From the IMG/VR virus record IMGVR_UViG_3300032177_000002, positions 1 to 64,000 of that record: a stretch of 64,000 nucleotides of DNA. One strand, given 5' to 3'. The DNA is from a virus. The notes beneath the pieces are model-generated. The model did no database searches and was not told where the DNA came from. It saw only the letters and a program-made list of their open reading frames with translations. A program made the translations under genes and the position numbers. Below, one piece after another: positions 8,080 to 33,794 of the stretch. Numbering within the stretch: position 1 is the stretch's first letter; the number at the start of each line of letters is the position of its first letter.

Positions 8080-8174
8080 GTTCAGCCTCCTTCCAGGAGG
8101 GCAAACGCAGCGAACGCCCGCATGGCGGGACACGCATTCCACCCTTCGCAACTGCCCCGCTGCACGGACAGGGC

Positions 8175-8564: not shown

Positions 8565-8567
8565 GAT

Positions 8568-8783
8568 GTCGAGCAACTCCTCAGAGGGAACCTGGTGAAT
8601 GTCTCGATGAATCACTGGCCAAGCACGGTTTTCCCTGAGAGTGGCGCAGCAATCCGCATCAAACTCGGAAGCGACGGCGGTGATGAATCCAGCCGCTTCC
8701 AGTCCGAGGTCAAGACCACCTGCTCCGGTGTAAAGGCTGATGACCTTCGGTCCAGCTTGTTTCCGTTGTTTGCTTCTAGCCAA
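8568..8783 (-). pseudogene. N-terminal fragment of a C5-cytosine DNA methyltransferase
   Basis: About 72 residues from a TTG at 8783 contain methyltransferase motif I (SLYTGAGGLDLGLEAAGF, the AdoMet-binding loop) and the following VASEFDADCCATLREN and HRDIHQVPSEELL segments, which match Dcm-type enzymes well. The catalytic PCQ motif and everything after it are missing: the frame passes directly into the DnaJ-zinc protein at about 8566. It cannot methylate DNA. GC-rich composition and truncation mark it as foreign. Confidence 0.65.
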
Positions 8784-8865
8784 AGGGCAGCTCCTACACT
8801 ACAGTGATTCTGCTGTCAATCCAGTAACTTGTATCATCGATTTCCTTTTTATTCTAAAAAGTTAA

Positions 8866-9837: not shown

Positions 9838-10803
9838 TTATTTTTCTCTAAAGTTGTTATCTACCTTAGAATTCTCCCACATAGTCTCTACCTTAGAATT
9901 CTCCCACATAGTCTCTACCTTAGAATTCTCCCACATAGTCTCTACCTTAGAAGTCCCACACATACTCACTACCTTAGAATTCTCCCTCATAACTTCTACC
10001 TTAGAGCTCCCCATCATAGCCTCTACCTTAGAATTCTCCCACATAACCTCTACCTTAGAAGTCCCACACATACTCACTACCTTAGAGTCCACCCACATAC
10101 CCTCTACCTTAGAATTCTCCAGCATAGTCTCTACCTCAGAATTCCCCAGCATAGTCTCTACCTTAGAAGTCCCACGCATACTCACTATCTTAGAGTTCCC
10201 CATCATAGCCTCTACCTTAGAATTCTCCCACATAACCTCTACCTTAGAATTATCCCACATAACTCCTACCTTAGAATCTCTTTCTATAGCCCATATTTTA
10301 GAGTTCTCCCACATAACCCCTACCTTAGAACTCCCCCGCATAGTTTCTATCTCGGAATTCCCCTTCATAACCCCTACCTTAGAACTCCCCCGCATAGCTT
10401 CTACCTTAGAATTCCCCGTCATGTATTGAATTCTACAATTATTGACATCCTTAACTTCAGCTCCATCAAGAAGGATATAACATCCATCTTGAAGGGTTTC
10501 TCGTTTGTCCTGAACAAACATACCAGAAATGATTGTCCATAACTTATTCTTTATAATTTCCACACTAAGCCACTCTGGGATATTCGATTTATCAATACTT
10601 AAATTCCAATTATGGATATCGTTTAAATTTTTGGTAGGATCTATAGGGATAAATTCGACCCTACAAGATTTTTCTAAATAGAATCCTTTTTCATCGTCTA
10701 CTAAATTATGCTTTTTTATGAGTTCCTCATGTCGATCAGGATATCCGGGATCCCAAATAATGTCTAAATTTTTTAACACAATGGTACTCAGAAAGTTACA
10801 CAT
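9838..10803 (-). CDS. Nonapeptide-repeat protein with unknown N-terminal domain, 321 aa
   Basis: Starts at 10803 behind AAAGGAGAAT. Residues 1-129 form a non-repetitive domain (FLSTIVLKNLDIIWDPG, later VEFIPIDPTK). From about residue 130 to near the end it is built of about 21 copies of a 9-residue unit, consensus (G/E)NSKVExM(W/R/M), alternating small polar, Lys-Val and Met positions. Such regular short repeats normally form a beta-solenoid. The period of 9 recalls RTX beta-rolls, but the Asp/Gly calcium ligands are missing. It sits directly upstream of pyrF. Function unknown; a binding or structural role is inference. Confidence 0.85.
   Translation of the reverse strand: MCNFLSTIVLKNLDIIWDPGYPDRHEELIKKHNLVDDEKGFYLEKSCRVEFIPIDPTKNLNDIHNWNLSIDKSNIPEWLSVEIIKNKLWTIISGMFVQDKRETLQDGCYILLDGAEVKDVNNCRIQYMTGNSKVEAMRGSSKVGVMKGNSEIETMRGSSKVGVMWENSKIWAIERDSKVGVMWDNSKVEVMWENSKVEAMMGNSKIVSMRGTSKVETMLGNSEVETMLENSKVEGMWVDSKVVSMCGTSKVEVMWENSKVEAMMGSSKVEVMRENSKVVSMCGTSKVETMWENSKVETMWENSKVETMWENSKVDNNFREK
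9859..10416 (-). repeat. 27-bp tandem repeat array (about 20.7 copies)
   Basis: Perfectly phased 27-bp units encode the nonapeptide repeats. The three or four copies nearest 9859 are almost identical; the copies towards 10416 have diverged, suggesting recent expansion at one end. The repeat carries no stop codon in several frames, which creates long spurious frames on the opposite strand. Confidence 0.95.
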
Positions 10804-18277: not shown

Positions 18278-20830
18278 TTATTCCTTTGATCCAGCTAGAA
18301 TCAATTCGTCCCATACTTCTATGTGGTCTATCTCGAATCTGCGTTGTATTAATGCGGTATGATTTACGCATCCTATAGCTGCTTGAACCCTCATGTCATT
18401 CCAATCTGCTGGGTTTAATCCTCCAGATCTTATATCTAGCCCCATAATGCTTTCCATACCAGTCATCCAATAATTTATTGTGTTCGTTTCAAGATTAACA
18501 GTAAACCAAAAATCTAGCCATCCAAGATCATTACTTATCTGTCCAGGCGCATCAAATATTGCTGCATCTGCTTCCGCGTATGTACCAAGTGTATTACTAT
18601 TTAATTTCCAGTACACGTTTACCCCAGCTATATTGTAGTACTGAAAATATATTCTGTAATAACCGTCAGCGGATCGTAAACCTAAATAGTATCTTACATC
18701 ATTTGTTACAGGGACAACTCCATAAGCTATAGGTCTAGCCCTCGCATAAAAATTTATTTTACGATAAATATTAGACCGTAATACCCACATGGCAGGGCTT
18801 CTGATTGCTATTTCATCATATGTGGACATCCCATGAGTACTCATTAGCATAGTATCGCCATTACTAAGCATATTTAATACAGGATCATTAAAAGCTAAAA
18901 AGCCACCATCGCCATCTTGGTATGCAAACCATTTATTGCCTGTGACTAAAGTTACTTCATCGGTTCCTGACTTATACGCAAACGTATCTACGAATCTATG
19001 GCTATCCGCTAACCTGCCCCACGGGGTCCACCGCATAATTTCTGCACCTTCGCAATGATGTAGACCAACTTGTCTCGTGCAAGGAAGACCTATATCCAAC
19101 CCAGAAATGGCTTGTGGTTTTATGTTGAGCGCATATTTATCTGCCGCATTAGTTCCTTGTACCTGCGTCCTAATGTCTAGCCCGCATTTTGTATGGACAT
19201 CAGTTTCTGGACCTACTGTTCCTATCCATTGCCCAAGTTGTACTTTCATACCTGGGGATCCTGCAGCAGTAGCATCAATATCAGTTAAAATTGCGTCTCT
19301 TGGATCTGCTGCTCCTGTTGTGGCATTAAACCTGTTATTTTTTATGGATACAAGGTTACCAGTTCCGCCATCTGGTAATACGGTTAAACACGGTGTTGAA
19401 TTGTTTTGGCCATCTCTTCCAGTTACCATTAACCCATGCCAATTTATTAGCGTACCTCCAGTTGCAGCTGGCAATAATACTCTATTTCCAAATACCATGC
19501 GTGGATGTAAAATGCTGCACTGTACCCCGCTAGCTGCAGCCCAAGCTGGTGAAGCTCCTGTTAGTAAATTCTTGCATGTTATATGATTTATATCCGGTAT
19601 TGTAACTATAGCGTAAACTCCAGCAGCTACCCCTGTACGTAACCATACTAAATTAGTTTCTTTGTTTAAATGTATTGACATATGGGTAAGATTAACGGCT
19701 GCACGTGGAAACGTTATTGTATTACCGCTAATATTTACAGTTTCAGGATCCAATATGTAGCTATGAGTACTATCGCGTAATGTTTGTAGTATTGCTATAG
19801 GGAGCGCGCTAGAATCCCCGCATATAATTTCTAAGCCTAATTGAAAATAATCAGTGTTACCTACCCTGTTAAGTCTTAATTGCGCATTGTGTAAATCGTC
19901 AGCTCCACCACTTGTAGTATTTAGTTCCAGTGCACCGGAATCTACGAAAATAGATCTCCCTGCACCTGGACCAGGTATACCATCGTAAGCCCTGTCCAAA
20001 CTTATTATCTGCAATAAGGTTTGGTCGTCTATATTAAACGTTGGTGTCGTACCCCCCGTAATAGTTCCAAGGAATGTACACGTGTTATCCGTGCGTAAAC
20101 CCGTGTTCTTCCTCCAGCTTACTCCTTGAATGAATACCCTGTAATCCGCTACGGTTGTGCTGGGAGGTTGAGATCCGGTATTTTGCCCTAATGGGCCATT
20201 TACGCCTGAGTAAGGTATATCTATGTAATTATCACTTCCGATAAAAACGCTGTACCCCTCAAAAAATGCCGTCGTTTCTATCGGGCTAACCGGGTCTACT
20301 AACCAAACTCTTACTTTACGCCCAGCATGACTCGCTCCGGATTCCGTTATGGAATTGATATTTATGCGTAAAAATGCTCCTGGAGTATCAACAATAGATG
20401 TAGGTGTTCCTACGTTGCCAAATGTTTGTAACAATGCCGAGTACTCGGGATCCCCAGTCCTTGGGTTTATCTCGATTCCAGACTCAACCTCTGCGTAATA
20501 CACACCGACGTAATACACCGTTGTGCTAACGTTGGCAAAAGGGATCTCATATGTGATCCCTATACCTATGATGCTGTTTAAATCTATTGTGTGGTTACTA
20601 GCAAGTACGGAATGGCATGTAGGTGTAGTAACAATATCGAATGTGGAACCACCAGATGAATTGTTTAATCCTATCTTATCCTGCGATAAAACCCCTGTAG
20701 ACCCTGCGAAGAATGCGGATCCTACCTCGTCTATAGCTCCCTGCAAATAGTCTAAGAATTGGTTCTTAATAGCCGTGAGGCTCAACAGCCGTTTGGGGTA
20801 AATATTTACTTTCTTGTCGTTCGTTGGCAT
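18278..20830 (-). CDS. Large tail fibre/baseplate appendage protein, 850 aa
   Basis: The ATG at 20830 follows AGGAGCGCAT. The N-terminal about 50 residues (NIYPKRLLSLTAIKNQFLDYL) are helical and probably attach to the baseplate; the remainder is Gly/Thr/Asn-rich and beta-structured with no enzyme motif. The last about 200 residues (FWFTVNLETNTINYWMTGME and around) look like a jelly-roll lectin-type domain. It is the last structural gene before the lysis genes and lies just after the gpI-like gene, the usual place for a tail fibre. Receptor binding is inferred. Confidence 0.75.
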   Translation of the reverse strand: MPTNDKKVNIYPKRLLSLTAIKNQFLDYLQGAIDEVGSAFFAGSTGVLSQDKIGLNNSSGGSTFDIVTTPTCHSVLASNHTIDLNSIIGIGITYEIPFANVSTTVYYVGVYYAEVESGIEINPRTGDPEYSALLQTFGNVGTPTSIVDTPGAFLRININSITESGASHAGRKVRVWLVDPVSPIETTAFFEGYSVFIGSDNYIDIPYSGVNGPLGQNTGSQPPSTTVADYRVFIQGVSWRKNTGLRTDNTCTFLGTITGGTTPTFNIDDQTLLQIISLDRAYDGIPGPGAGRSIFVDSGALELNTTSGGADDLHNAQLRLNRVGNTDYFQLGLEIICGDSSALPIAILQTLRDSTHSYILDPETVNISGNTITFPRAAVNLTHMSIHLNKETNLVWLRTGVAAGVYAIVTIPDINHITCKNLLTGASPAWAAASGVQCSILHPRMVFGNRVLLPAATGGTLINWHGLMVTGRDGQNNSTPCLTVLPDGGTGNLVSIKNNRFNATTGAADPRDAILTDIDATAAGSPGMKVQLGQWIGTVGPETDVHTKCGLDIRTQVQGTNAADKYALNIKPQAISGLDIGLPCTRQVGLHHCEGAEIMRWTPWGRLADSHRFVDTFAYKSGTDEVTLVTGNKWFAYQDGDGGFLAFNDPVLNMLSNGDTMLMSTHGMSTYDEIAIRSPAMWVLRSNIYRKINFYARARPIAYGVVPVTNDVRYYLGLRSADGYYRIYFQYYNIAGVNVYWKLNSNTLGTYAEADAAIFDAPGQISNDLGWLDFWFTVNLETNTINYWMTGMESIMGLDIRSGGLNPADWNDMRVQAAIGCVNHTALIQRRFEIDHIEVWDELILAGSKE

Positions 20831-20850: not shown

Positions 20851-22434
20851 TTAATCAGGCAACCCAGGGTATGTTATTTCTGTAGGTGGAGGTCCTACAT
20901 GATCTGCTTCTATCGGCCATACAGCCGCCTCAACTATTCTTAATGATGCGCTTCCAGCCGTGCAAGAAGCCCCTACTTTTCCATTTAGGAAAGTACTTGA
21001 CGCGTCTTCTGGCTCCGAGGATGCGAATACTGGTTCGCCATCGAACGTCACCTTGAAATGCACTGCATAGCTAGGCATGTTTATGACATCCACTCTAATG
21101 ACATCCGCTACATTCGCCTTTAACCACGGCATCATTGATGTTTCTGCCAATGTGGTTTCTACGCCTAATCTGCATTTGATGAGCCGAAGCTTTTTGGTTG
21201 CCATGCTTAATTGCAAAGCATAATGGTTATTAGCGTCTATGTACCGGAAAAGCCCTCTAAACACAGATGTGTTGTCAGCAAGTGTTATTTTCCAATAAAT
21301 GGTTGCATCCCCCCAATCTTCTGCGTATAAGGCATTTGTTACTATCCTTCCTCCGCTAACTAACACGGTAGATCCCCCAGGGTTTGGTACTGTTGCATCT
21401 CCTGTTACTGCCCATTGGTCAAGATCATTAACTACTTTAAATTCATCAAGCAAGTCTATATAAACAATTCGTACCCTCTCTGATAATGGTCTCACTACTT
21501 CTATTAGGGATCTAAGGAGTTTTCTATTCATAACTCCGTCTAGTTCTCCTTTTACTGTGGCAGATGCAGCTCCAGGTAATGATGTAATAATTTCGTTACT
21601 AACAAATCTTTTATACATGTGTTTTAATGTTATTGATCCTAATGTAGAGGTAGAATTTACTGTTGTTATTACCCCAGTAGCTCCTGATATTACACCGGTT
21701 ACAATGTCTCCAACATAAAATGTACCAGATGTTAAATTATTATAAGTTAGTATGCCCACACTGTCATCTACTAATCTAACTTCTGACAGATACTCGTCCA
21801 TAGCGCCATATAATGACCCTGCATATTCCCCTTCAGACCCAACCGGGAAGTCTTCAATTATAGTTCCATATGTGCTGTACGGATTGCATGCATTTATGGC
21901 ATACGTTTTTGCAGCTATGCCGTCTTCTATTACTAAATATCTATAATCATACGTAGTAAAAAATATACCTAATGGCAACCCAGCTTCTATTGTAAATTTT
22001 CTTGGATCCCCGTCTGCAATATGTACAGTAAGCTCACGCGCAACTTTACCCCAAAAGTCTATGCACCATGGGTCAAAATTCCCCATTTCCTCGCCTAGGA
22101 TTAACTCATCAGTAACCATTCTGTAATCAAAGAAGTTCATTGTACGATAATTGTTTCCAGATACCATTCTTATAGGGTTCTCTATTATGCCAAGTTCACT
22201 TGGTTTTTTACTCCAAAATGGTATTGATAACGTTAAAAGACGGCGTAATTCTGCTTCTTTTATTGCGCCTAAGTACAAATTAGTAGTGAACCCTAATAAT
22301 GGTTTTAAGTATTTTAGCCACTTATAATCAATATTAGTAACTTCGAACAATGCAGGTAATTTTGTTGCCGGATCGTAAATGTAGTCTTCCCAAACGGAAT
22401 CTATGTGATCACATATTTTTCTTAAAATACCCAT
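20851..22434 (-). CDS. gpI-like baseplate/tail protein fused to a lectin-like domain, 527 aa
   Basis: Residues about 1-160 match the P2 gpI/phage tail protein I pattern: YLKPLLGFTTNLYLG, AELRRLLTLSIPFWSKKP, ELGIIENPIRMVSG, FFDYRMVTDELILGEE. The C-terminal about 170 residues (from LDQWAVTGDAT) form a beta-sandwich of the LamG/concanavalin type with FRGLFRYIDANNHYALQL. gpI normally sits right after gpJ; here about 8.5 kb of fibre genes lie between them. It probably links fibres to the baseplate. Confidence 0.78.
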   Translation of the reverse strand: MGILRKICDHIDSVWEDYIYDPATKLPALFEVTNIDYKWLKYLKPLLGFTTNLYLGAIKEAELRRLLTLSIPFWSKKPSELGIIENPIRMVSGNNYRTMNFFDYRMVTDELILGEEMGNFDPWCIDFWGKVARELTVHIADGDPRKFTIEAGLPLGIFFTTYDYRYLVIEDGIAAKTYAINACNPYSTYGTIIEDFPVGSEGEYAGSLYGAMDEYLSEVRLVDDSVGILTYNNLTSGTFYVGDIVTGVISGATGVITTVNSTSTLGSITLKHMYKRFVSNEIITSLPGAASATVKGELDGVMNRKLLRSLIEVVRPLSERVRIVYIDLLDEFKVVNDLDQWAVTGDATVPNPGGSTVLVSGGRIVTNALYAEDWGDATIYWKITLADNTSVFRGLFRYIDANNHYALQLSMATKKLRLIKCRLGVETTLAETSMMPWLKANVADVIRVDVINMPSYAVHFKVTFDGEPVFASSEPEDASSTFLNGKVGASCTAGSASLRIVEAAVWPIEADHVGPPPTEITYPGLPD

Positions 22435-22459: not shown

Positions 22460-22939
22460 TTATGTATTATCTTCATCTGTATCACGTACTCCTTTAATAA
22501 TCATATTGTAAACTTTTAAGGTTACTATGCGTTTTATTATATCGAAGTACCAAGATGTATCTAGTACCTCCAGGTTACTATTAGTAGCGCGTACTCGTAC
22601 AGTTATTCTTTCTTCGGCTACCCATTTCAACGCAGTGTTTGGTGTAATTCGAAACTTAAATCCCAGATTTTTAATACTAAATTCTGATGTAGTCCAATCC
22701 GCAAGGAACCCATTTGCATTAAATACTAACACGCCTCTAACCCAAATTTGTATAGACGGTAGGAGTACTTTGGTGTAATTGTCAGCAATCGTAAATTCTA
22801 TGTCTACTGATTTTTTTACGTTTACTGTGTTAGGAGATGGCAAGACTTCAGTAACGTACGGTCGTGATACAAAAGTAGTAGATCTGTATTCCTTACCATA
22901 AGGTATATTACGCCCATACTGACTATGCCCATGACTCAT
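22460..22939 (-). CDS. Small tail-associated Ig-like protein, 159 aa (paralogue A)
   Basis: A paralogue of the 25575-26054 protein: same length, same Gly/Tyr-rich N-terminus (YGRNIPYGKEYR vs YGRGTYYGHGS), and shared core IEFTIADNYTKVLL / IWVRGVLVFNANGFL / LKWVAEERITVRVRA. The core looks like a single beta-sandwich (Ig/cadherin-like) domain. It lies between the glycosyltransferase and gpI-like genes. Probably a fibre-associated or decoration protein. Confidence 0.75.
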   Translation of the reverse strand: MSHGHSQYGRNIPYGKEYRSTTFVSRPYVTEVLPSPNTVNVKKSVDIEFTIADNYTKVLLPSIQIWVRGVLVFNANGFLADWTTSEFSIKNLGFKFRITPNTALKWVAEERITVRVRATNSNLEVLDTSWYFDIIKRIVTLKVYNMIIKGVRDTDEDNT

Positions 22940-22968
22940 TGGTATACCACTCCTTTGCTTGAATGCAC

Positions 22969-23679
22969 CTAATTACGGACAGGCTTAATATGCATTGCTT
23001 GCGCTTTTTTCACCTCAAAAGCCCGGCTAATTGTATAATTATGCTTGTTATGCTGACTTGTATTCCCTTCCCATTTTCTCCAACAGTATAAGTATTGGGG
23101 TACCATTAAAAACTTATGCCCATTAACCAGCAATCTAAGCATAAGTTCGTAATCTTCTGCCATCGTGTAATCTTCATTATACCCACCCTCATCAAGAATC
23201 CTATTTTTATCAAACATAAAGCACCCATGATAAAATGATAAGCCGTTCTTTATATATTTCGCTATGTCTCTATGTGTTTTTACTAAACTGTACTGTTTTA
23301 CAGGTTTAGTATCTTGCAATTTAATATAACAGTAACTAAGCGCTAAAATAGAATTTGATGTCTTGAAAATAGCGTATTGTATATTTAACCTGTCAGGCAT
23401 TGATATATCATCTCCATCCATTCTTGCTATTACATTATATTTACTATTACGTAATCCTATATTTAAAGAGCTAGCTAATCCTACATTACATCCATTAGAA
23501 ATTAGCTTTATTCTTGAGTCCACTTTCATTTTGTCTTTTATTATTTTGCATGTTTGATCAGTAGAGCCATCGTTTATTATTAAAAATTCAAAATCTAAAA
23601 AAGTCTGGCCTAGTATACTATCTATGGCTGATACCAAATATCTTTCTTCGTTATATACTGGCATGATAATTGTTATCAC
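22969..23679 (-). CDS. Family 2 glycosyltransferase
   Basis: A GT-A fold enzyme, 236 aa. The N-terminus MITIIMPVYNEERYLVSAI and FLIINDGSTDQT are the classic GT2 nucleotide-sugar site; the metal-binding DxD is in ARMDGDD; the acceptor-side motif is YTMAEDYELMLRLL. GTG start at 23679. It lies inside the tail-fibre island between two fibre modules. It may glycosylate virion fibres or alter host surface sugars (serotype conversion), or act on modified DNA; the location favours the first two. No membrane segment is seen. Confidence 0.92.
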   Translation of the reverse strand: MITIIMPVYNEERYLVSAIDSILGQTFLDFEFLIINDGSTDQTCKIIKDKMKVDSRIKLISNGCNVGLASSLNIGLRNSKYNVIARMDGDDISMPDRLNIQYAIFKTSNSILALSYCYIKLQDTKPVKQYSLVKTHRDIAKYIKNGLSFYHGCFMFDKNRILDEGGYNEDYTMAEDYELMLRLLVNGHKFLMVPQYLYCWRKWEGNTSQHNKHNYTISRAFEVKKAQAMHIKPVRN

Positions 23680-23701
23680 GTACGCACCTTATACTATAAT
23701 T

Positions 23702-25543
23702 CTATGTAGTAATCAATAATGCTTGTATTTTCCAGCTGCATTCTGTACCAGCACCAAAATTGCTGCCAGTGTAAGCTCGCCATTCTATTTTTACATTATG
23801 ATTCCCAATAGGTAAACTAGGTAAAGTAACCATACCGGTAAATTCGTATGTATTTGAAGAAGTAGTATATATTTGCCACGAATTATCAGTAACGTATATT
23901 GGCGTGGTATCATAATCAAATACAAGACGAAATTTACCGAGATTAGCACCAGCACCAACACCGATACATATTTTAACTACTAAGAAATATACTCCAGCAA
24001 CTACTGATGGGCTTAATATCTCATACATATCTCCTGGTTCAGGTACTACCGGGTAACCGATACCTGTAAAGCTTGTTCCACTAGTTACTCTACCAGCAAT
24101 AGGGGCTTTATTAAGCATTACTACCGGTAATCCTAAACCGCCTGTATATATAGCTTGAATTTTCCAATTAAAATAGTTAGGACTCGTGCTTATAGTAGAT
24201 CCTGTAATAGCAGACCAGTCTATTTTTACGTTATGTGTGCCTACTGCTAGATTAACGGTACATACAAAGTTGCTAATTAGTACAGGTGTCGGTACAAGGT
24301 CCTTATATAACTTCCACGAAGCATCAGTAACGTATATTGGTGTGGTATCATAATCAAATACTAACCTAAATGCGGCCCCGGTACCCACATCAATACAAAA
24401 ATTAACTTTTACCATAACAAAATAAACGCCTGGTTTAGATACGTAAAATTCCTCGAACATATCTCCTGGTTCATCAATTCCTGGGTAACCTACCGCATCG
24501 AACCCATTTACATTCTTTGTAAGAGCCGTACTAGGCGCTTTGTTAAGCATCTCAATAACTGCACCTATACTTCCACCACCAGTACTATCTTGCCATGAAG
24601 CAACGTTTGACCCTGTTGCTGTCAATACTTGACCGGCAGTAGGAGCAGTAGCGGAAGAAACGTATACTACAGTAGTAGCCGTCCTAATTCCACTAGCTGT
24701 CCTGTCGCCTGTTAGTCTTGAATCATTACCTTGGCATACCGTGTTAACTGCAGTCCCATAAGTAGGGGATAATTGCAGTTGCTCATTACCTGAAGGATTT
24801 AATACTGATTTTTGTAGCCCATTAGCGACAGTTACTTTTGAATCCAGGTACGAAGTAGTGGTGTCTGACGTAGTTACTTTAGACTTAGTATCTTCAGTTA
24901 CTCCGCCAGTACCAAATGATGAAAAAGCTACTTTTTTCTTTGTAAACGTATCCGAGGAGTCTTCTAACAATAAAATATCAGCGCTTATTGGGGTAGACTT
25001 TAAAGTAAATGAGTTAAAATCCCCAGCAGCCCGCTTCAATTGAGAATCGTTTGTGACACTTCCTAAGCTTACTTGTGTCTTTGTAACCGAGTGAGGATTA
25101 CTTACGTTTATCTCATGCAAATGCAAAACTGATTCAATTATTCTAAGCGTTTTATCTATTAGGTATTGCCCCCAATTTCTAGAGTAGTCGCCGGGTAAGT
25201 ACAGCTGGTACCATCTAGTTTTAACTAAAATTTGTTGTTCGCAATCTGATAAATCTAAATCTGGATTACTATTACCTTCCGTATTTGTGGCTACGCACCT
25301 AATCACGTATCCGCCGTCAATTTCTCCGTCAACGTATAACCCAGGAGCTTGAATGGTAGCCACGCCGTTTATAAAATCTACGTTTACTCCTACCTTCGCA
25401 TTAGATCCATACGGTACTGATAGTATTTCCCATCTCCACGCGTAAGGAGATCCAGTAGCTGTTGCTCCCATAGTTACTAATTGTGGGGATACCGAGTAAC
25501 TAATTTCAATGTCAGTGTTACATGTTACTTTAGGTATAGCCAT
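23702..25543 (-). CDS. Modular tail fibre protein with two C-terminal lectin-like domains, 613 aa
   Basis: Residues 1-210 are nearly the same as in the 30032-30925 gene (shared GATATGSP, QQILVKTRWYQLYLPGDYS, RIIESVLHLHE), the baseplate-attachment half. The middle is a repetitive fibre shaft (LGSVTNDSQLKRAAGDFNSF). The C-terminal about 280 residues hold two similar beta domains, each with VFDYDTTPIYVTD, NHNVKIEW/THNVKIDW and a KAP motif (VIEMLNKAPS; VVMLNKAPIA). Repeated tip domains suggest binding to a repetitive surface glycan. Confidence 0.82.
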   Translation of the reverse strand: MAIPKVTCNTDIEISYSVSPQLVTMGATATGSPYAWRWEILSVPYGSNAKVGVNVDFINGVATIQAPGLYVDGEIDGGYVIRCVATNTEGNSNPDLDLSDCEQQILVKTRWYQLYLPGDYSRNWGQYLIDKTLRIIESVLHLHEINVSNPHSVTKTQVSLGSVTNDSQLKRAAGDFNSFTLKSTPISADILLLEDSSDTFTKKKVAFSSFGTGGVTEDTKSKVTTSDTTTSYLDSKVTVANGLQKSVLNPSGNEQLQLSPTYGTAVNTVCQGNDSRLTGDRTASGIRTATTVVYVSSATAPTAGQVLTATGSNVASWQDSTGGGSIGAVIEMLNKAPSTALTKNVNGFDAVGYPGIDEPGDMFEEFYVSKPGVYFVMVKVNFCIDVGTGAAFRLVFDYDTTPIYVTDASWKLYKDLVPTPVLISNFVCTVNLAVGTHNVKIDWSAITGSTISTSPNYFNWKIQAIYTGGLGLPVVMLNKAPIAGRVTSGTSFTGIGYPVVPEPGDMYEILSPSVVAGVYFLVVKICIGVGAGANLGKFRLVFDYDTTPIYVTDNSWQIYTTSSNTYEFTGMVTLPSLPIGNHNVKIEWRAYTGSNFGAGTECSWKIQALLITT

Positions 25544-25574
25544 TATCTTGTCCTTTACTTGGCATACTATTCAT

Positions 25575-26054
25575 TTAGTCAGAGTATTCATCGGCTTTTC
25601 GCAAACCATCAACTATCATAGGATAAACTTTGAACGTAAAAGGTCTTTCTATTATTACGAATTTCCATGTGTCATCTACTATTCTAGACGCTCCATTTTT
25701 TGCGTATGCACGGATGGATATTTCTTCTTCTGCCAACCATCTTAATATTGGATCTGGTTTAATCCAGAACCAAAACCCAAGACCTAAAACTCCGTATCTT
25801 GAAGCTGACCATCCTCTAAGGAACGCCCCTGCGTTAAAAACAAGAGCACCTCGTATCCATACCTTTATGGTAGACCGTATTATTTGCGTGTAGTCATCCG
25901 TAATAATAAATTCTACGCAAGCAGTTCTAATAACGTCTTGCTCGTCAACATTAGGCATTTTTTCTATGATATATGGCGCTGGTCTACGGCCTGCTATAGA
26001 TCCATGACCATAGTAAGTTCCTCTTCCGTATCTGCTTTTGCCATACCCCATCAT
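25575..26054 (-). CDS. Small tail-associated Ig-like protein, 159 aa (paralogue B)
   Basis: A paralogue of 22460-22939 with the same length and core (VEFIITDDYTQIIRS, VWIRGALVFNAGAFL, LRWLAEEEISIRAYA). Gly/Tyr/Arg-rich N-terminus. Each copy lies just downstream, in transcription order, of a fibre-type gene, so fibre and small protein may have duplicated as a unit. Role unknown; probably a fibre accessory. Confidence 0.75.
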   Translation of the reverse strand: MMGYGKSRYGRGTYYGHGSIAGRRPAPYIIEKMPNVDEQDVIRTACVEFIITDDYTQIIRSTIKVWIRGALVFNAGAFLRGWSASRYGVLGLGFWFWIKPDPILRWLAEEEISIRAYAKNGASRIVDDTWKFVIIERPFTFKVYPMIVDGLRKADEYSD

Positions 26055-26061
26055 AGCCCTC

Positions 26062-26886
26062 CTATGGAAGTGTTACACGAAAAAAATCAAAAGAAGCACC
26101 GCCCCTATCAATATGGGGTGTTTTATCAGAAGTACAACGAGCCCACCACATAATTCCAAATCTTTGTGGAATAAGATCAATCCATTGGCTATAATCCATA
26201 GCTATACACCACCAAGAATACCCATCTAGACTGCTATAAATACTCGCAGTTTTAGTAGAGTTATTCCATACTATTTTTATGTAACACCCTTTTCCAGACA
26301 CAGTACATCCAGTAGACATAGTCTTTCCAGACCCGTAATTTGTCCATGCTAGTGAAGTCGGTGGATTATTAGCAGTCCCCAAGTATCCTATACCAGCTCG
26401 ATAACCTCTGTAATAAAAAGTAGTATCAACATAATCAGAAGACATATAAATACCGTACATACCCCCTATAGCCTGATATGCATTTACTTTAGTAATTATA
26501 GTAAAACTTGCGTTAGGGGCAACTTGATACAAAACATGCTGATCTGGCCACCAGTTACCATACTCACCACCATCCCATCCAACAGTTGCCCATACTTTTC
26601 CTTTACTAACCCCGTATGACTCTACTCCAGAAGACGGAGCTCCAGCCAACATCCAACTCCATTTGCTTGTATTTAATGTGGTACCATCAAACTCATCATC
26701 ATAAATAGACGGATTTATAGGTGGTGTATCAGCAGAATATACAGCAGTTGGAATACTACCAAAAGCTAACGAAGTAGCCGTATCATTTACAGCTACTAGT
26801 TTACTTCCTTGTCCTGAATAACTATCAGGTGTAACATCAGACAAATTTAAAAAATTATTATTTTGTTGAGATGGCGTAATAGTCAT
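26062..26886 (-). CDS. Lectin-like fibre tip protein, 274 aa (copy 1 of 3)
   Basis: The short N-terminus ITPSQQNNNFLNLSDVTP is the conserved head of a three-gene family (26062, 26899, 27683). Then a linker and PPINPSIYDDEFDGTTLN opens a beta-jelly-roll of LamG/concanavalin type ending in an FFRVTLP strand. The motif IYSSLDGYSWWCI corresponds to SPDGLVWLPI/SPDGVVWVPT in the other copies. It probably binds carbohydrate on the host surface. Confidence 0.8.
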   Translation of the reverse strand: MTITPSQQNNNFLNLSDVTPDSYSGQGSKLVAVNDTATSLAFGSIPTAVYSADTPPINPSIYDDEFDGTTLNTSKWSWMLAGAPSSGVESYGVSKGKVWATVGWDGGEYGNWWPDQHVLYQVAPNASFTIITKVNAYQAIGGMYGIYMSSDYVDTTFYYRGYRAGIGYLGTANNPPTSLAWTNYGSGKTMSTGCTVSGKGCYIKIVWNNSTKTASIYSSLDGYSWWCIAMDYSQWIDLIPQRFGIMWWARCTSDKTPHIDRGGASFDFFRVTLP

Positions 26887-26898
26887 TATCTTTTCTTT

Positions 26899-27669
26899 TT
26901 ATAAAGTTACTCTAAAATAATCTACGGATAATCCCATACTGGTTAACCGACTGCCATAATAAAAAGCGGAAAGAAAAGCCATTCCAAAATAATTTATCGT
27001 TGTTAAATTATTATCGTGTGTAGTTCCATTAGTAATCGGTAGCCAAACAAGTCCATCTGGACTTGCCCATCCTCTAAATTTAGCTGTAGTCTTATTCCAC
27101 GTCGCTTTAAAATACAAATTATTAGGTGAAAGAGATATAGTCGTGTTTAATATTGTCCAAGATGAACCTGACCAATACATAGAACATGCCATATAGTTAC
27201 TGGTATAACCCATTCCTATTAGAATTGGACTTTCCGCGCCAAAAGAGCTATTCCCCATAAATAACCCACAAAAAACATGGTGATACTGCGATGAACTCAT
27301 TTTTGCAAGTATAGTAAAACTTTGATTTGGTGCTGGTTGTGCAATTACATTGGCATACTGAGGATCTACAGCAACATCATTGAAAGTTAAAAACATTTTA
27401 CCATTATTAACATTTACAGATAATGGAGCACCATTATAATACCAACCCCATTTTGGATTTAAAGAGACTCCTGAAAATTCATCATCGTAAATTGACGGAA
27501 TTATCGGAGGTATATCTGCTGGAGATGAGCTATACGAAGCAACAGAAGAAAATTCTAAAGCTGTAGCCCCAGAATTAACTACTATTCCTTTTCCACCGTT
27601 TCCTACAAACGTATTAGGACTATCTGTAAGATTTAAAAAATTATCGTTAAGTTGAGAAGGGAAGATCAT
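26899..27669 (-). CDS. Lectin-like fibre tip protein, 256 aa (copy 2 of 3)
   Basis: Same architecture as 26062-26886: head PSQLNDNFLNLTDSPN, then IIPSIYDDEFSGVSLNPKWG and a beta-sandwich with WNKTTAKFRGWASPDGLVWLP, ending DYFRVTL. The DNA around 27050-27115 is still highly similar to 27838-27902 in copy 3, so this pair duplicated recently or exchanges by gene conversion. Receptor-binding role inferred. Confidence 0.8.
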   Translation of the reverse strand: MIFPSQLNDNFLNLTDSPNTFVGNGGKGIVVNSGATALEFSSVASYSSSPADIPPIIPSIYDDEFSGVSLNPKWGWYYNGAPLSVNVNNGKMFLTFNDVAVDPQYANVIAQPAPNQSFTILAKMSSSQYHHVFCGLFMGNSSFGAESPILIGMGYTSNYMACSMYWSGSSWTILNTTISLSPNNLYFKATWNKTTAKFRGWASPDGLVWLPITNGTTHDNNLTTINYFGMAFLSAFYYGSRLTSMGLSVDYFRVTL

Positions 27670-27682
27670 TGTAAATATACTC

Positions 27683-30028
27683 CTATAGAAAAACTCTAAA
27701 ATAATCTACAGAGGCCACACATCTATCTGTATAACTAAATAAATTAGAATTTGACCAAAAACATAAACCAAATCTGGTTACCGTTGTTAATGCATTATCA
27801 TTCGTACTTCCATCTGAAGTAGGTACCCAAACAACCCCATCTGGACTTACCCACCCTCTAAATTTAGCTGTAGCCTTATTCCAGGTTATTTTAAGCCATA
27901 TACCACTCGGATCTATAGATTGACCAGATAAGTATACCTCTGACCCAGCATTTATATAACGCATATATGCTACCGGATAACCGCCAGAGTATGGATTACC
28001 ATACCCAGATATAATAAGCCCATCCGGATTTGATGCAGCTGTACCAATAAAAATGCCTATAATAGAATACTTTCCTGTTTCTAAATGACAATTAAAACGA
28101 GAGACAATAGTAAAACTTTGATCCGGTGCTGTCTGAGCTAAAACGTGTGCGTCTGTCCAAAAATTAGCAAATACTCCTGAATCAGGGGCAAAACTTATTT
28201 GTAATCTCCCACTTCCAACAACAGCACTTTCTACTCCAGATGAAGGAGCTCCACCGAATAGCCATAACCATTTTGGGTCAATAGAAGATCCACTAAATTC
28301 ATCATCATAAATAGAAGGTGAAGTTGGGGGATCGTCACCTGGAAATGGATTTGGGGGTATTGTAACAGTAGCTAATTCAACTTTAGTAGCAGCACTATTT
28401 ACTGCTAAATATTTTCCAGCTTTACCGACATACGTTTTAGTAGTTCCATAATCTATAGTTCCTGTATATAAAGTACCAGAAAATGTGCCATGGCTAGCCG
28501 TGTCTTTCCATGTAGCCGGAACTGAATAGGCTACCATAGCGCTAGTCACATAATACAAAGTCTCATCAGCAGGGTCTACGAAACACCAAAACATATCAGA
28601 GGTATCCACACTACTAAAATAAATTGGGTACCACCAACTTTGACCGGTTGCTCCATCGTTATACCAACGTCTCCATTTTGTTACCCCTATTCCAGCAGTA
28701 GTAGCATGAATCTTGTATATGTATTCTCCAGAATAATGGACAAAAGCATGACGTACATTAGCGGAAGGAATTTGCCACTGATTCCAGTCCCCAGAATAGC
28801 CTCCATCTGTTCTATTCCTAGAAGCGATAATTCCTACTGGCCCGCAATCTCTTGCACTTGCAGATGCATTTGCAAAATACACCCCATTCCATGCTTTTAA
28901 AAATGCCCCCGTTGTAGCAGAAGCACTTGTAGTATGTTTTCGTATAGAATCAGTAGTAAAATCAATTTCAATTGTTCCACCACCTGCAGTAGATACCAAC
29001 AATACTCCATTTTTCATTATGGCATGTTTTGGTTCTAACTCTATTGCGCTATTTGTATTTTTTAAAAATCTCATCCATAATAGGTTTGTAGAATAATCAA
29101 CTATGTCTACTCTATCTGTATATGCAGTAATGACGACCTTTTCTGGAAAGTCTGCTCTAGTGCCCCGAAATAATGGATCAGCCGCTTCTCTAAACCAACC
29201 ACTTGTATTATTTACAGTTCCACTATTGATTGTAAATCCAAATACATCTACACGATTTATAACAAAGTTTCCGTCACCTCCAACCCATACGTCAATTCGC
29301 ATGGGTTTACTCATAACTGCTCCACGATCAGTTGCAGTTCTTAATGTTACCCATGCAGATGTAGAATTATTCCAATAATATGTAGTTATAGTTTGCCCAC
29401 CACTTCTAACTAATCGTAATTTCCCATAAGTATCCGTAGTAGAAGCAGATACATAAGACCCCCAAGTGTTATTAGTCAAAATATCTGAATCGTATACATT
29501 ATCATGATGTCTTCTAACATAACACCAGTTCATGTCATCAACTTCTGCCTGCAACATAGGAACACCACCTTCTACACCACCACTCTTACTTAAATTTACA
29601 TAAGAAATTTGAATATCAAAGTTTCCAATCAAACACCATCGAAATCTTGAGCATAGATATTTAGCGACCCATCCACTAATAGGACTTATAGTATTAAATT
29701 TTACATGGTCATCTGAAACAATAGACATAACCGGATTAGTAACGCCAGCAGCTAATCCAGAAGGCTCTATATCTGTCATCCACGTTTTGCCGTTATACAC
29801 ACCCCCAGAACAGAATGACGTGCCATTTAAAGTAGGACCGCACTCAGAACCATTGTAATAATGTTTTCCATTTCTACCAATTCCATAAAGGCCATTTCCT
29901 GGGGTAGGAGAGGCCCATTGTTCTCCTGCGGTATCATAGACAAATATGGAGTTAACTGAACTTTCTATATCTGTTACGTCAGATAAATTTAGTAAATTAT
30001 TACTAAGTTGTGATGGTGATAACGTCAT
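27683..30028 (-). CDS. Large multidomain tail fibre with C-terminal lectin-like domain, 781 aa (copy 3 of 3)
   Basis: Shares the head LSPSQLSNNLLNLSDVTD and the C-terminal domain (SIYDDEFSGSSIDPKW ... WNKATAKFRGWVSPDGVVWVP) with the two smaller paralogues. Between them it carries about 500 extra residues of beta-rich, Trp- and Tyr-rich sequence without an obvious hydrolase signature. It looks like an extended version of the same adhesin, with additional carbohydrate-binding modules (inference). It lies 4 bp from the next fibre gene. Confidence 0.8.
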   Translation of the reverse strand: MTLSPSQLSNNLLNLSDVTDIESSVNSIFVYDTAGEQWASPTPGNGLYGIGRNGKHYYNGSECGPTLNGTSFCSGGVYNGKTWMTDIEPSGLAAGVTNPVMSIVSDDHVKFNTISPISGWVAKYLCSRFRWCLIGNFDIQISYVNLSKSGGVEGGVPMLQAEVDDMNWCYVRRHHDNVYDSDILTNNTWGSYVSASTTDTYGKLRLVRSGGQTITTYYWNNSTSAWVTLRTATDRGAVMSKPMRIDVWVGGDGNFVINRVDVFGFTINSGTVNNTSGWFREAADPLFRGTRADFPEKVVITAYTDRVDIVDYSTNLLWMRFLKNTNSAIELEPKHAIMKNGVLLVSTAGGGTIEIDFTTDSIRKHTTSASATTGAFLKAWNGVYFANASASARDCGPVGIIASRNRTDGGYSGDWNQWQIPSANVRHAFVHYSGEYIYKIHATTAGIGVTKWRRWYNDGATGQSWWYPIYFSSVDTSDMFWCFVDPADETLYYVTSAMVAYSVPATWKDTASHGTFSGTLYTGTIDYGTTKTYVGKAGKYLAVNSAATKVELATVTIPPNPFPGDDPPTSPSIYDDEFSGSSIDPKWLWLFGGAPSSGVESAVVGSGRLQISFAPDSGVFANFWTDAHVLAQTAPDQSFTIVSRFNCHLETGKYSIIGIFIGTAASNPDGLIISGYGNPYSGGYPVAYMRYINAGSEVYLSGQSIDPSGIWLKITWNKATAKFRGWVSPDGVVWVPTSDGSTNDNALTTVTRFGLCFWSNSNLFSYTDRCVASVDYFRVFL

Positions 30029-30031
30029 AAT

Positions 30032-30925
30032 TTATCCGTTCGTCCAATAAATAAACTGATAAAAAGAAGCAGACTCGGACACATACGTTACTGTCTTTGA
30101 TACCGACGTATATTGATACTCATCCACGGTAGCTGGACTTCCAACAACCCATTTAAGTTTTACTCCATTTCTATGTACCTCTATAGCATATCCTGACGGG
30201 CTAGATTTAGCTAATACAGGGGTGTACGATAAAATTTTGGTCGTACTCCCGTCATCTATTTTCGTTTCTTCGGTATAAGCTGCTGAAAATGATGAAAATG
30301 ATGAAAAAGCAACTTTTTTCTTTGTGAACGTATCAGCAGAGTCTTCTAGTAATAACACATCGGCGCTAACTGGAGTAGATTTCAATGCAAATGAATTAAA
30401 ATCTCCTGCAGCTCTCTTTAATTGGTCATCGTTTGTAACACTTCCTAAACTTACTTGCGTCTTTGTGACTAAATGAGGGTTACTTACATTGGTCTCATGT
30501 AGATGCAAAACTGACTCTATAACTCTGATAGTTTTATCTATCAGATACTGCCCCCAATTAAAAGAATAGTCTCCTGGCAAGTATAGTTGGTACCACCTAG
30601 TTTTCACTAATACTTGCTGTTCGCATGCTGCTAGATCTTCTTCTGGATTGCTAGCACCATCTGAATTCGTAGCTATACATTGGAATACATAACCGCCATC
30701 AACAGATCCGGTTATAGTAACGTTAGGATTCTGTGCTGTAGATATTCCGTCTACGAAATTGCCATTTACTCCCTGATCAGCAGTAGACCCGTATGGCACG
30801 GAAAGCATTTCCCATCTCCATGATGATGGAGATCCTGTTGCAGTCGCACCAAGAGTAATTGCTTGAGGGGATGTAGAATAACTTAATTCTATATCTGCGT
30901 TACATGTTACTTGAGGTATAGCCAT
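30032..30925 (-). CDS. Short tail fibre sharing the N-terminus of the 613-aa fibre, 297 aa
   Basis: Residues 1-210 are a close paralogue of 23702-25543 (shared GATATGSP, QQVLVKTRWYQLYLPGDYS, FTKKKVAFSSF). The unique C-terminal about 85 residues (AIEVHRNGVKLKWV ... FYQFIYWTNG) form a small domain instead of the two lectin-like ones. It is the first fibre gene after the gpJ-like baseplate gene. The shared N-terminus suggests both compete for, or share, one attachment site. Confidence 0.8.
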   Translation of the reverse strand: MAIPQVTCNADIELSYSTSPQAITLGATATGSPSSWRWEMLSVPYGSTADQGVNGNFVDGISTAQNPNVTITGSVDGGYVFQCIATNSDGASNPEEDLAACEQQVLVKTRWYQLYLPGDYSFNWGQYLIDKTIRVIESVLHLHETNVSNPHLVTKTQVSLGSVTNDDQLKRAAGDFNSFALKSTPVSADVLLLEDSADTFTKKKVAFSSFSSFSAAYTEETKIDDGSTTKILSYTPVLAKSSPSGYAIEVHRNGVKLKWVVGSPATVDEYQYTSVSKTVTYVSESASFYQFIYWTNG

Positions 30926-30964: not shown

Positions 30965-33409
30965 TCAAATAGTTTCCTGAATATGAATCGTTATATTAGC
31001 CGCTGTAGATACGGGTAACTCATTTTGTCCTAGTTTCAAGCTTGATGTAGACCCATTTATTAAAAGGCTTGGTACATCAAGGATCCCAGGGCTCACAGCG
31101 TGAATAGCTGTATAGACCCTAGATCTACTTACATATCCTCCAAAGTCCCACACACTCGTTACTCCATCGTCTTCCACTACTAAGGGCTCTAAAAACGCCA
31201 ACAGGGCATTCCTAATTTCTTCCGCTACGCCCCCTGGCCATGTAACCGTTGCGGCAATCGTTATTACTTTTGGCTCATAGTTGAAAACGGTTACCTGATG
31301 GTTTACTACCAAAACGCCGTGTGTAACCGGCGATGCATTCCTATTCCCGTTAAAGTACTGTTCTAATTGCGATTTCTGATTTTGGTTCAGTGTGGTACCC
31401 CCGTTCCCTACCACCATGAGTTTTATGGTCTTCGGACCTAACCCTTCTTCGATAGCCACTGCGCGAGCTACAGGGCGAACCCCAGCAGCATCGATAAACC
31501 GTTTCACCGCATGCAACTCGCAGTCTTCTGCCGTGCTAACAGTATCCCTGGTTCTTAGACTAGCAGGTGCATCCCTCTTTACCCGTTCTATATCTTCTGC
31601 TGTCCCACCATCTTTCATTCTCCAACCGTATGCAGCCCGAGGGTTGTATACTTCTGATACCCCGCTTATCCCGTCTGTATTTGTAGAAATCTCTTTTATA
31701 CCAACATTCCCGTCCACATCGCCACCTACTCTGTATGTAGCACGTATATTGTTTGTTCCACTTATTGGGATTTTACCGTTCGTGCCATCCCCAAAATGGA
31801 TAGTGGCTTTATCTTTTGCATCTGTCTCAATTGTATAGTTCCTGCTGTTTTCTGAACTATTTAGAAAGTTAGCCATTCTGGTCCATGACATCCAACCCCC
31901 ACTTCCTGTTTCATCAATCTCTATTTCATCGCTTTCATCTAAAAACGGCGTCTCAGGCAACGCATAGGATTGGCTTACACTCCCATCACTACCTCCAATT
32001 ACCTGCGGTCCTACTGTTTCTCCTTGTGTCACAAGTACCATCATAAATTGATCACCATGATCAATAGCTAATTCTTCTATTACTGGGAGTGTCACAAGAA
32101 GTGCTTCTGTTACTCTGTATCTCAGCCACCATCCTGGTACTGAATTGACCTCGTAAGAGTTCCAGCTACGTTCTACATCTTGTGGAAAATTATAAGTTAA
32201 CACACCATCTGATCCAAAAGCATTAGATGTGTCTTCTTGGTTATCAAGAGGTACCCAATCCGCTTGTACCAAATAATCATCGCTATTTAATGATGGTATT
32301 ATTTGTCCCAATAACCCAGTTGTTACAACCATATTTTCGCCATCATAAGATGAAACAAGTCGCTCTGATACACCTGTAGCTACATGCGTTACTGTTACAT
32401 CAGCTCCGCTACGATCCAACGTACCTAATAACGAGTTTATATACACGATTAGCAGAGCATACTCATTTGTTTCTACCCTAGTAGGCGCAAACTTGGATAA
32501 AATACCATCGTAGTATTCCCAGCATCCAGATAAAGTACCTGTAGTGCCTGTTGCTACATCAATGTCTACTTGAGCGAATAAGCACTGCGTATGTCCAATG
32601 TATAATGCATCAGAAGCCTCCAAAGTTGCCCACGGCGTATACGTGGATCCTGGGGTATAATTTGCTACAGCAAAATCTTCAGTGAATGCCTTAAGCTTCC
32701 AACTTAGATCTGTTTCTGTTTGGAATCCTGGCGTTCCGTTACCCGGAACTTTTACAACGCGTACCGTATTTTCATCAACAAATTCTGTTACCCTGAACTC
32801 TCCACCATTACTGCCGGTTCCTTTAGGTATAAATAAATGCATAGTTACGGATTCAGCAGCAAATGCGTCCCCGCTAGTCTTTGTAAAAATATCTGGTGCC
32901 GTAGTACTCACAGATCCAACCCCTGACTTAACTGTTTCCAACCCATATACATGGGTTAATCTGTCCGTCCTCGTCAGGCCTATACCACCTACATCCATTA
33001 CTTCATACGTAATAGGTGGAACCGATTCTGTAGAGAATTCAGATAGTTCTGGTATAAACCCAGTTATATCTGCTGTGGTTACCTCTGATAGCTTTACGAG
33101 AAGTTCCGCCTGCGCTGGCGAGGCGCTATTCAATGAAACCCCAATCAGTTTCATCAAGCGTTTCAAGCTCTCCAGCAGCGTAAGCGAATCAATCATCATC
33201 TCTTGGGCTATAATGTCTGTCCTGCAATTATTCAGATGGCCGACTAACGCAAATGCACGTAGAAGTTGTACATGCACTTCGTAATCATTTTCGTCAGTTA
33301 AGCCCATTGCTTCTCTGTTCCTTCGGAAGAAGGTGAGAAGTTCTTTTAATATTTCTGGGTAATAAAAAGATGAAAATTCAACGTCCGGGACGGTTATAAC
33401 CCTGCTCAT
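30965..33409 (-). CDS. Baseplate J-like (gp47-type) wedge protein, 814 aa
   Basis: I chose the ATG at 33409 (MSRVITVPDVEFSSFYY) with GGAG upstream; a longer frame starts at 33424 inside the previous gene. The N-terminal helical region and the C-terminal segment (LGPKTIKLMVVGNGGTTLN, VTHGVLVVNHQVTVFNYEP, VWDFGGYVSRSRVYTAI) fit the gpJ/T4 gp6 baseplate family; an RATYRVGGDVDGNVG motif typical of the family lies mid-protein. It is larger than P2 gpJ, with inserted beta domains. It follows the gp25-like gene as in P2. Confidence 0.85.
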   Translation of the reverse strand: MSRVITVPDVEFSSFYYPEILKELLTFFRRNREAMGLTDENDYEVHVQLLRAFALVGHLNNCRTDIIAQEMMIDSLTLLESLKRLMKLIGVSLNSASPAQAELLVKLSEVTTADITGFIPELSEFSTESVPPITYEVMDVGGIGLTRTDRLTHVYGLETVKSGVGSVSTTAPDIFTKTSGDAFAAESVTMHLFIPKGTGSNGGEFRVTEFVDENTVRVVKVPGNGTPGFQTETDLSWKLKAFTEDFAVANYTPGSTYTPWATLEASDALYIGHTQCLFAQVDIDVATGTTGTLSGCWEYYDGILSKFAPTRVETNEYALLIVYINSLLGTLDRSGADVTVTHVATGVSERLVSSYDGENMVVTTGLLGQIIPSLNSDDYLVQADWVPLDNQEDTSNAFGSDGVLTYNFPQDVERSWNSYEVNSVPGWWLRYRVTEALLVTLPVIEELAIDHGDQFMMVLVTQGETVGPQVIGGSDGSVSQSYALPETPFLDESDEIEIDETGSGGWMSWTRMANFLNSSENSRNYTIETDAKDKATIHFGDGTNGKIPISGTNNIRATYRVGGDVDGNVGIKEISTNTDGISGVSEVYNPRAAYGWRMKDGGTAEDIERVKRDAPASLRTRDTVSTAEDCELHAVKRFIDAAGVRPVARAVAIEEGLGPKTIKLMVVGNGGTTLNQNQKSQLEQYFNGNRNASPVTHGVLVVNHQVTVFNYEPKVITIAATVTWPGGVAEEIRNALLAFLEPLVVEDDGVTSVWDFGGYVSRSRVYTAIHAVSPGILDVPSLLINGSTSSLKLGQNELPVSTAANITIHIQETI

Positions 33410-33413
33410 AGCT

Positions 33414-33794
33414 CTAATCTCCAACCGGAGGAATAGGTACTTCTATAAATTTACCTTCCTGCGTTTCCATATTTATGTATTCAACACTCATGTACAATTC
33501 ACCTTCGTCCCCACGTTTGAATTGTACAGCTTCATCTTCAGATTTAAGTTTTGCTAATTGATCCGCTTCAAATAAATCAAATATGCTTATAACTTTTTCT
33601 TTTATACGCCCTGTAGTCATTCCATCGTTAATGCCAAATATCATCCATTCGCCTAATCCAATGGTCTGGAATGGATTTTCACTCTCCATCCCTATTAGAG
33701 CTAACTGTACTAGCTGCTCTATATAAGCATCCCCGTACAACTTTTTAAGCCGCCCATTCTTTGTCACTAGCGGAACTTGAATACCACATGCCAT
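33414..33794 (-). CDS. gpW/gp25-like baseplate protein, 126 aa
   Basis: Small baseplate wedge protein that in P2 and T4 helps start sheath polymerisation. Position between the spike (gpV-like) and gpJ-like genes, length (about 100-130 aa) and the FQTIGLGEWMIFGINDG and DEGELYMSVEYIN segments support the assignment. It overlaps nothing and sits 1 bp after the spike gene. Confidence 0.75.
   Translation of the reverse strand: MACGIQVPLVTKNGRLKKLYGDAYIEQLVQLALIGMESENPFQTIGLGEWMIFGINDGMTTGRIKEKVISIFDLFEADQLAKLKSEDEAVQFKRGDEGELYMSVEYINMETQEGKFIEVPIPPVGD

Follow-up and report, generated by a model that had tools for sequence, protein, structure and literature searches.

The DNA analysed here (the window) comprises bases 1-64000 of a viral record 103,083 bases long, one metagenomic contig of an uncultured, contractile-tailed phage. 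Its minus strand carries tape measure, sheath and baseplate wedge genes and, downstream of the sheath and tape measure genes, an island that separates the genes for a gpJ-like and a gpI-like wedge protein (Table 1). The two wedge genes lie 8.5 kb (8530 nucleotides, nt) apart, the longest of the 34 gpJ-gpI stretches measured, and the eight genes between them, mostly of the host-attachment type, are tightly packed with gaps of 3-39 nt. From gpJ to gpI the order is fib297, lec1, lec2, lec3, 159A, fib613, GT2 and 159B. The fibre genes stand beside gpJ and gpI in a contractile tail operon and combine a common head with variable tips, as is the case in fibre or receptor-binding clusters; a fibre island as such is a kind of locus already known. 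All the island parts named in an earlier reading of the sequence (the original prediction) were present on the minus strand, at the positions given for them. The GT2 gene and a doubled tip in fib613 were absent from that description. The island is a real, old attachment island at a repeatedly used insertion site, and comparison with related loci suggests that the first segment of gpI has been detached onto the neighboring proteins of 159 amino acids.

The two fibres, fib297 and fib613, share one N-terminal attachment half, as had been predicted: residues 1-205 are 76% identical (E 9e-118), and no similarity was reported past about residue 220. The tip of fib613 is itself duplicated internally into two units of about 144 amino acids that are 49% identical. 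The prediction of three genes with a common head peptide and a lectin-like domain also held, both regions being alignable across lec1, lec2 and lec3. The N-terminal peptide is 74% identical over 19 amino acids between lec1 and lec3, and the C-terminal domains, which resemble concanavalin A (ConA), are mutually 35-41% identical (E 4e-31 to 4e-51). The pair of 159-residue proteins with an immunoglobulin (Ig)-like domain, located beside the fibre and lectin-like genes, are likewise paralogues, 40% identical over their length including the C-terminal region discussed below (E 9e-45). High DNA similarity between lec2 and lec3 had been noted as well. One stretch of 117 nt at 80% identity bears this out, but over the whole domain protein identity is 41-46% and the silent difference (pS) is 0.59, so close to saturation that the similarity is no sign of a recent event. 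Silent differences per site (Nei-Gojobori) amounted to 0.59-0.67 in the ConA-like domains, 0.69 in the fibre heads and 0.73 in the 159 pair. With silent sites so near to saturation, the duplications must be old, and a recent event was rejected. The amino acid-changing distance at residues 116-205 of the heads was 0.066, and the likeness of the heads reflects selection-driven conservation rather than youth. The order fibre-cargo-159, fibre-cargo-159, gpI suggests a repeated unit. A single joint duplication of that unit would be compatible with the saturated silent sites, but it is not proven because the copies of the unit differ in divergence.

Relatives were collected through gpJ searches of viral contigs (40 loci) and, together with L046 and L047, amounted to 42 loci. 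Hidden Markov models of the two wedge proteins found both genes in 33 of them; L003, L004, L010, L011, L014, L022, L033, L046 and L047 fell outside this census. The gap between gpJ and gpI was at most 12 nt in 16 loci and 135-5710 nt (0.14-5.7 kb) in 17. After removal of near-copies, 12 of 28 loci had adjacent genes and 16 had cargo. Adjacency, which the original prediction held to be the usual state, is therefore common but not prevalent. Among 31 gpJ proteins placed in a tree, the island state changed 6 times, and at least 4 of these changes were forced by well-supported branches. Left out of the tree were copies of L037 (L038, L039, L041, L043) and of L026 (L027), truncated copies (L010, L011, L004) and loci with no measured gap (L014, L022, L033), while L003 and L046 were labelled as having an island with a placeholder gap, gpI not being on the same stretch. 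The gpJ-gpI junction is a variable fibre site that has received insertions repeatedly. Its cargo includes single fibres, a collagen-like fibre (L003) and an FG-GAP protein (L003, L046, L047). Two copies of the latter, 87% identical, lie at opposite ends of a single 105-kb record (L046 6001-7584 and L047 1-2517), and are possibly tandem copies or the product of an assembly break in a repeat. Paralogue pairs within the island were also found in L012 (76% identical) and L042 (66%). These independent duplications and the paralogy in the window agree with the proposal that attachment modules expanded by duplication. A single ancestral set without duplication, the outcome opposed to that proposal, was not found among the relatives, which had no island, one fibre or other cargo.

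A profile of the 159 pair gave weak matches (E 0.15 and above) at the N-termini of the relatives' gpI proteins, and alignment of 27 distinct gpI N-termini revealed a common short arm. The match to a gpI hidden Markov model (HMM) started at position 3-9 in 33/33 loci, a count that is partly by construction since the 27 distinct segments of these loci were used to build an HMM of the arm. Window gpI appears to lack the arm because its match starts at position 28. The gpJ and gpI HMMs include the window proteins, which match them by construction. The arm HMM was built without the window, and the independent test it offers concerns only the two 159-residue proteins. When 165 open reading frames (ORFs) of the window were searched, the best match was 159B (E 7e-6) and the next best 159A (E 0.034), both at the extreme C-terminus, and the real score was reached by 0/3000 shuffles of 159B and 7/3000 of 159A. 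Among 4837 ORFs of all loci, 159B was the best match that is not a gpI (E 2e-4). An alignment of profiles with hhalign placed residues 136-159 of the pair at the beginning of 29 gpI segments (E 1e-4, probability 56%). In L013 an Ig-like domain, the arm and the body of gpI follow one another in a single chain. In the window, 159B and gpI adjoin with 25 nt between them and a stop codon in every frame at the junction, and G+A-rich stretches precede the starts of both 159-residue genes. The Ig-like pair, previously regarded as neighbors of the fibre genes, are indeed adjacent to them, but on the evidence of the arm HMM and hhalign they look like more than neighbors, namely a detached N-terminal end of gpI. 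There is a good case for an arm-like end on 159B, whereas for 159A the case is weak and comes mainly through its paralogy with 159B. It is likely that gpI is split, and its end was probably duplicated onto two adaptors.

Several observations weigh against this interpretation. The idea of an arm arose from the weak matches (E >=0.15), hence the test was not blind, and the arm is only about 20 residues long. Over the 4837 ORFs 159A reached only E 1.0, third among the non-gpI matches. In a plain position-score scan 159B scored 28.0, but an internal gpI stretch (residue 302 on) scored 10.6 and 159A only 8.2; that stretch outscores 159A, and 0/500 shuffles were as high, so scores of about 10 are unsafe. 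The start of gpI has no clear ribosome-binding stretch ahead of it. A relative split in the same way was found neither among the related loci nor in contig scans, which require exact short peptide patterns, so that absence in them is weak evidence, and the closest gpJ relatives, L003 and L004, end before gpI. The two copies of the proposed unit diverge unequally (head 76%, 159 pair 40%). The structural model of 159B also has no helix in its last 20 residues, where the predicted local distance difference test score (pLDDT) is about 50; a missing end helix in a model of the lone protein is neutral, neither supporting nor excluding folding on binding. The rest of that model has nine strands within residues 22-133, with ten-residue pLDDT means of 69-91 from residue 41 to 130. 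A fold search with it returned mostly Ig-type chains (no Foldseek E <=0.001, best Z 8.6), by which an Ig-like fold is modestly supported. Pfam and PHROGs gave nothing for 159A or 159B, and the Ig-like profile had no sequence match among solved structures. The Ig-like region of 159B matched the third of three similar stretches in an 838-residue protein of L047 (E 5e-4).

We hypothesized that the island represents an array for host attachment that entered the baseplate operon between gpJ and gpI. It would have grown by old duplications, perhaps of a unit extending from the fibre head to the N-terminal part of gpI. Unit A would comprise fib297, lec1, lec2, lec3 and 159A, and unit B fib613, GT2 and 159B, with the remainder of gpI behind it. 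In the relatives the arm and body of gpI are parts of one polypeptide, which in some also has an Ig-like domain ahead of them; in the window a gene boundary after the arm would have left the Ig-like domain plus arm as a separate protein of 159 amino acids, present twice and acting in trans as an adaptor. By analogy with known baseplates, the arm of 159B, and perhaps that of 159A, would join the helical core bundle of gpJ and gpI, so that the Ig-like domain is held at the edge of the wedge, where the fibre heads may dock. The ConA-like and tip domains would then bind surface glycans. Taken as a whole, we give this scheme a little better than an even chance. A further-reaching version, which we consider rather unlikely, is that of a trans-split wedge protein whose first segment may come from either of two Ig-like adaptors, each with its own fibre unit. 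The wedges of one virion could then be differently fitted, and in the relatives the gene boundary would move along the fibre-Ig-arm-body chain, in some perhaps cutting an Ig-like domain, whose last strand would then be missing from the fibre and stand at the start of gpI.

Table 1. Genes and features of the island and its borders in the window (aa, amino acids; res, residues).
Feature	Position	Strand	Basis
gpJ-like (T4 gp6-like) baseplate wedge protein; upstream island border	30965..33424	-	PHROG baseplate wedge, E 9e-18
fib297, short fibre: head, res 1-205 (30311-30925), and short C-terminal part	30032..30925	-	head paralogy
lec1, 781 aa: head peptide, middle (about res 40-530), ConA-like C-terminal domain (27686-28336)	27683..30028	-	
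lec2, 256 aa: head peptide and ConA-like domain (26902-27534)	26899..27669	-	GH43_C2, E 0.002, under Pfam cut-off
lec3, 274 aa: head peptide and ConA-like domain (26068-26742)	26062..26886	-	36% identity to lec2, E 8e-33
159A: Ig-like domain and putative C-terminal gpI-arm-like peptide (25587-25637)	25575..26054	-	159B paralogy; arm HMM weak
fib613: shared head (24929-25543) and two related tip domains (24140-24571, 23705-24136)	23702..25543	-	
GT2 glycosyltransferase	22969..23679	-	Pfam Glycos_transf_2, E 1.4e-30
159B: Ig-like domain and putative C-terminal gpI-arm-like peptide (22466-22522), directly upstream of gpI	22460..22939	-	arm HMM
gpI-like (T4 gp7-like) wedge protein, apparently without N-terminal arm; downstream island border	20851..22434	-	gpI HMM; L007 BLAST
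850-aa structural protein, after gpI here and in relatives; synteny anchor	18278..20830	-	

The main competitor is an ordinary fibre array in which the 159-residue proteins are free Ig-like accessories, their likeness to the arm is due to chance or composition, and gpI merely lost its first segment. The shortness of the motif, the low score of 159A next to the internal gpI stretch and the model of 159B without an end helix all speak for it, and the available part of the XM1 report describes an Ig-like protein, gp12, in that baseplate (PMC10457771). However, the rank of 159B in both ORF sets, a score that none of its 3000 shuffles reached and a location exactly where the missing arm is expected, beside an arm-less gpI, make this explanation somewhat unlikely, although it has to be taken seriously. 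The split between 159B and gpI could also be artificial, an intact gene having been broken by an error of assembly or sequencing. The window comes from one metagenomic contig, the relatives carry arm and body in one gene, and a clear ribosome-binding stretch is missing ahead of gpI. Against an error stand the stop codons in every frame at the junction, a second, paralogous 159-residue gene with the same ending and the G+A-rich stretches ahead of both gene starts, and we regard it as extremely improbable.

Two other alternatives concern the cargo. The GT2 gene has the lowest G+C content (0.319) of 15 genes compared and its product matches GtrB-like O-antigen conversion PHROGs (E 3e-14), as would be expected if unit B were a surface-modification cassette that alters host or virion glycans, in the manner of phage O-antigen conversion, to which the fibres are tuned. 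Its NCBIfam matches are all under the curated cut-offs, though, its neighbors fib613 and 159B match no such family, and the idea accounts for one gene, not for the island; it is very improbable. As for the three ConA-like proteins, a model of lec2 based on three sequences (mean pLDDT 60) had its Foldseek matches among GH43 and GH16 chains (E 1.8e-7, template modelling score 0.53). With the GH43_C2 match (E 0.002) this makes two concordant weak lines for a jelly-roll (ConA-like) fold; the ConA-like profile had no sequence match among solved structures, and the middle of lec1 had no clear match among the relatives. Since the best structural matches are glycoside hydrolases, the three proteins could be enzymes or scaffolds instead of receptor binders, but the Pfam match is to an accessory C-terminal domain of GH43 enzymes and a simple GH16 catalytic-motif pattern was absent from lec1, lec2 and lec3. 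This alternative is quite improbable. The ConA-like and tip domains are putative binders of surface glycans.

The relatives gave further indications that parts move at this junction. A stretch of 2,475 nt containing a fibre tip and the next gene (FG-GAP) is 95.4% identical between L046 (5113-7584) and L003 (14018-16489), while the gpJ proteins of the two loci are only 37% identical. In L003 the tip is joined to a collagen-like stem, and in L046 to a head that has 44% identity with the fib297 head (E 6e-55). This pair is the clearest sign of module exchange, as judged from the sequences; a role of misassembly is conceivable, as each contig terminates within the shared stretch or shortly behind it. 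The exchange of host-range modules suggested by the original prediction is thus seen between relatives, but none is visible within the window. Another type of Ig-like domain is complete in the fused gpI proteins of L013, L019 and L029. An HMM trained on these three (101 columns) matched the fibres of twelve further loci (L007, L008, L012, L018, L020, L021, L023, L025, L026, L028, L030 and L042) from column 1 to column 77-87. The match ends 1-2 residues before the fibre C-terminus in L018, L020, L023, L026, L028 and L042. In L007, L008, L012 and L025 it is internal to a longer protein, and 11-18 residues follow it in L021 and L030; in these six the last Ig strand is possibly diverged rather than missing. 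A conserved strand is present at the gpI start in ten of these loci, and a strand HMM matched where gpI begins in L028 (E 9e-9) and, weakly, in L042 (0.62), as well as the end of this Ig-like domain in the fused proteins of L029 (0.001) and L019 (0.0099); L013 was not among the 30 matches listed. Other genes lie between the cut fibre and gpI in L028 and L042. These matches suggest that a domain common to fibre and gpI was cut at different points between genes, and strand donation in trans between the fibre end and the gpI start is possible. The Ig-like domain of the 159 pair is not called the same as that of the relatives because the HMM of the latter did not match it.

Window gpJ is 69% identical to that of L003, the closest loci, L003 and L004, being at about 68%. 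Window gpI is 36% identical to gpI of L007 (BLAST, E 2.5e-17). When six gpI proteins were scanned with Pfam Tail_P2_I, the five from relatives matched (E up to 0.01) and window gpI did not. The N-terminal arm is a trait of gpI in this group and does not enter the Pfam definition. The profile of gpI (20851-22434) matched three levanase chains with its C-terminal part (E 7e-4 to 1e-3). The C-terminal half of gpI may carry a carbohydrate-binding, ConA-like domain. Exact-short-peptide scans of viral contigs with fib297, the 159 pair, window gpI and window sheath as queries yielded no close relatives, and gpJ had no match in such scans of genome contigs. In tblastn searches of 50,697 phage records, gpJ had only partial matches, in six Streptomyces phage records, fib297 had one partial match, and 159A, lec2 and gpI had none. 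A diversity-generating retroelement was dropped as an explanation, there being no RVT_1 match, and hence no reverse transcriptase gene, in the 103-kb record, itself possibly incomplete. Elsewhere in the window, positions 2961-9819 hold carA, carB and pyrF (pyrimidine synthesis), which score far over the NCBIfam cut-offs, and the G+C content climbs there to 0.48. The ORF at 8175-8783 begins with a short piece of cytosine methyltransferase and continues into a DnaJ-like stretch, with both matches far under cut-offs, and has the appearance of a remnant or chimera. Similar stretches, as judged by eye, occur in two of the record's proteins, at window 9838-10803 and at L048 10416-11171. The former has a long tandem SKVE-type repeat, and the latter adjoins two similar proteins whose start we take to be sulfatase-modifying-factor-like. 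A helicase-like protein at 13775-15961 (XPB model, E 5e-10, under cut-off) contains a long run of glutamate-rich repeats.

For the evolution of host range, a practical question is how a phage gains new fibres while its baseplate stays intact. If gpI can lose its end to separate, duplicated proteins that supply it in trans, the point of connection would itself be an exchangeable plug. This would help explain why fibres have repeatedly been gained, lost and swapped between gpJ and gpI, and would yield an attachment rule for uncultured phages that is concrete and can be tested. The available portion of the XM1 report describes wedges composed of (gp6)2-gp7 in T4 and (gp16)2-gp17 in XM1, in which the N-terminal helices of the gp7-like protein lie in a core bundle with two gp6-like subunits (PMC10457771). 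In XM1, residues 1-48 of gp17 form a helix-turn-helix of the bundle with two gp16 proteins, and gp17 also carries spikes. The gpJ and gpI proteins are the gp6 and gp7 counterparts, but unlike those of T4 and XM1 as described there, the gp7-like first segment seems to be located on separate, duplicated Ig-like proteins. In cyanophage A-1(L), for which the source was likewise available in part (PMC10966104), two fibre types, gp33 and gp34, dock on one gp31/gp32 wedge, whose helical bundle includes residues 1-107 of gp32. The part of the gpI profile that matched gp32 (E 1e-6) was the body, not the arm; unlike the protein proposed here, gp32 is a single chain of 191 amino acids. A limited literature search (one open library, few terms) produced no description of a split and duplicated wedge end among the papers listed, which is no proof of absence, and no paper that matched in full on donor-strand or strand-complementation docking of fibres on a baseplate, which does not show that it is unpublished. 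The gp7-like part of the Algoriphagus contractile injection system, Alg12, was named a hotspot for re-engineering of fibre binding in the accessible text of PMC8894135; unlike in Alg12 as presented in that text, the gp7-like part appears to be split here. Common heads with swapped tips are also found in the domain shuffling of receptor-binding proteins, as outlined in the accessible part of PMC10684548. Unlike in the cases outlined there, the duplicated end of the baseplate may in this phage belong to the shuffled unit.
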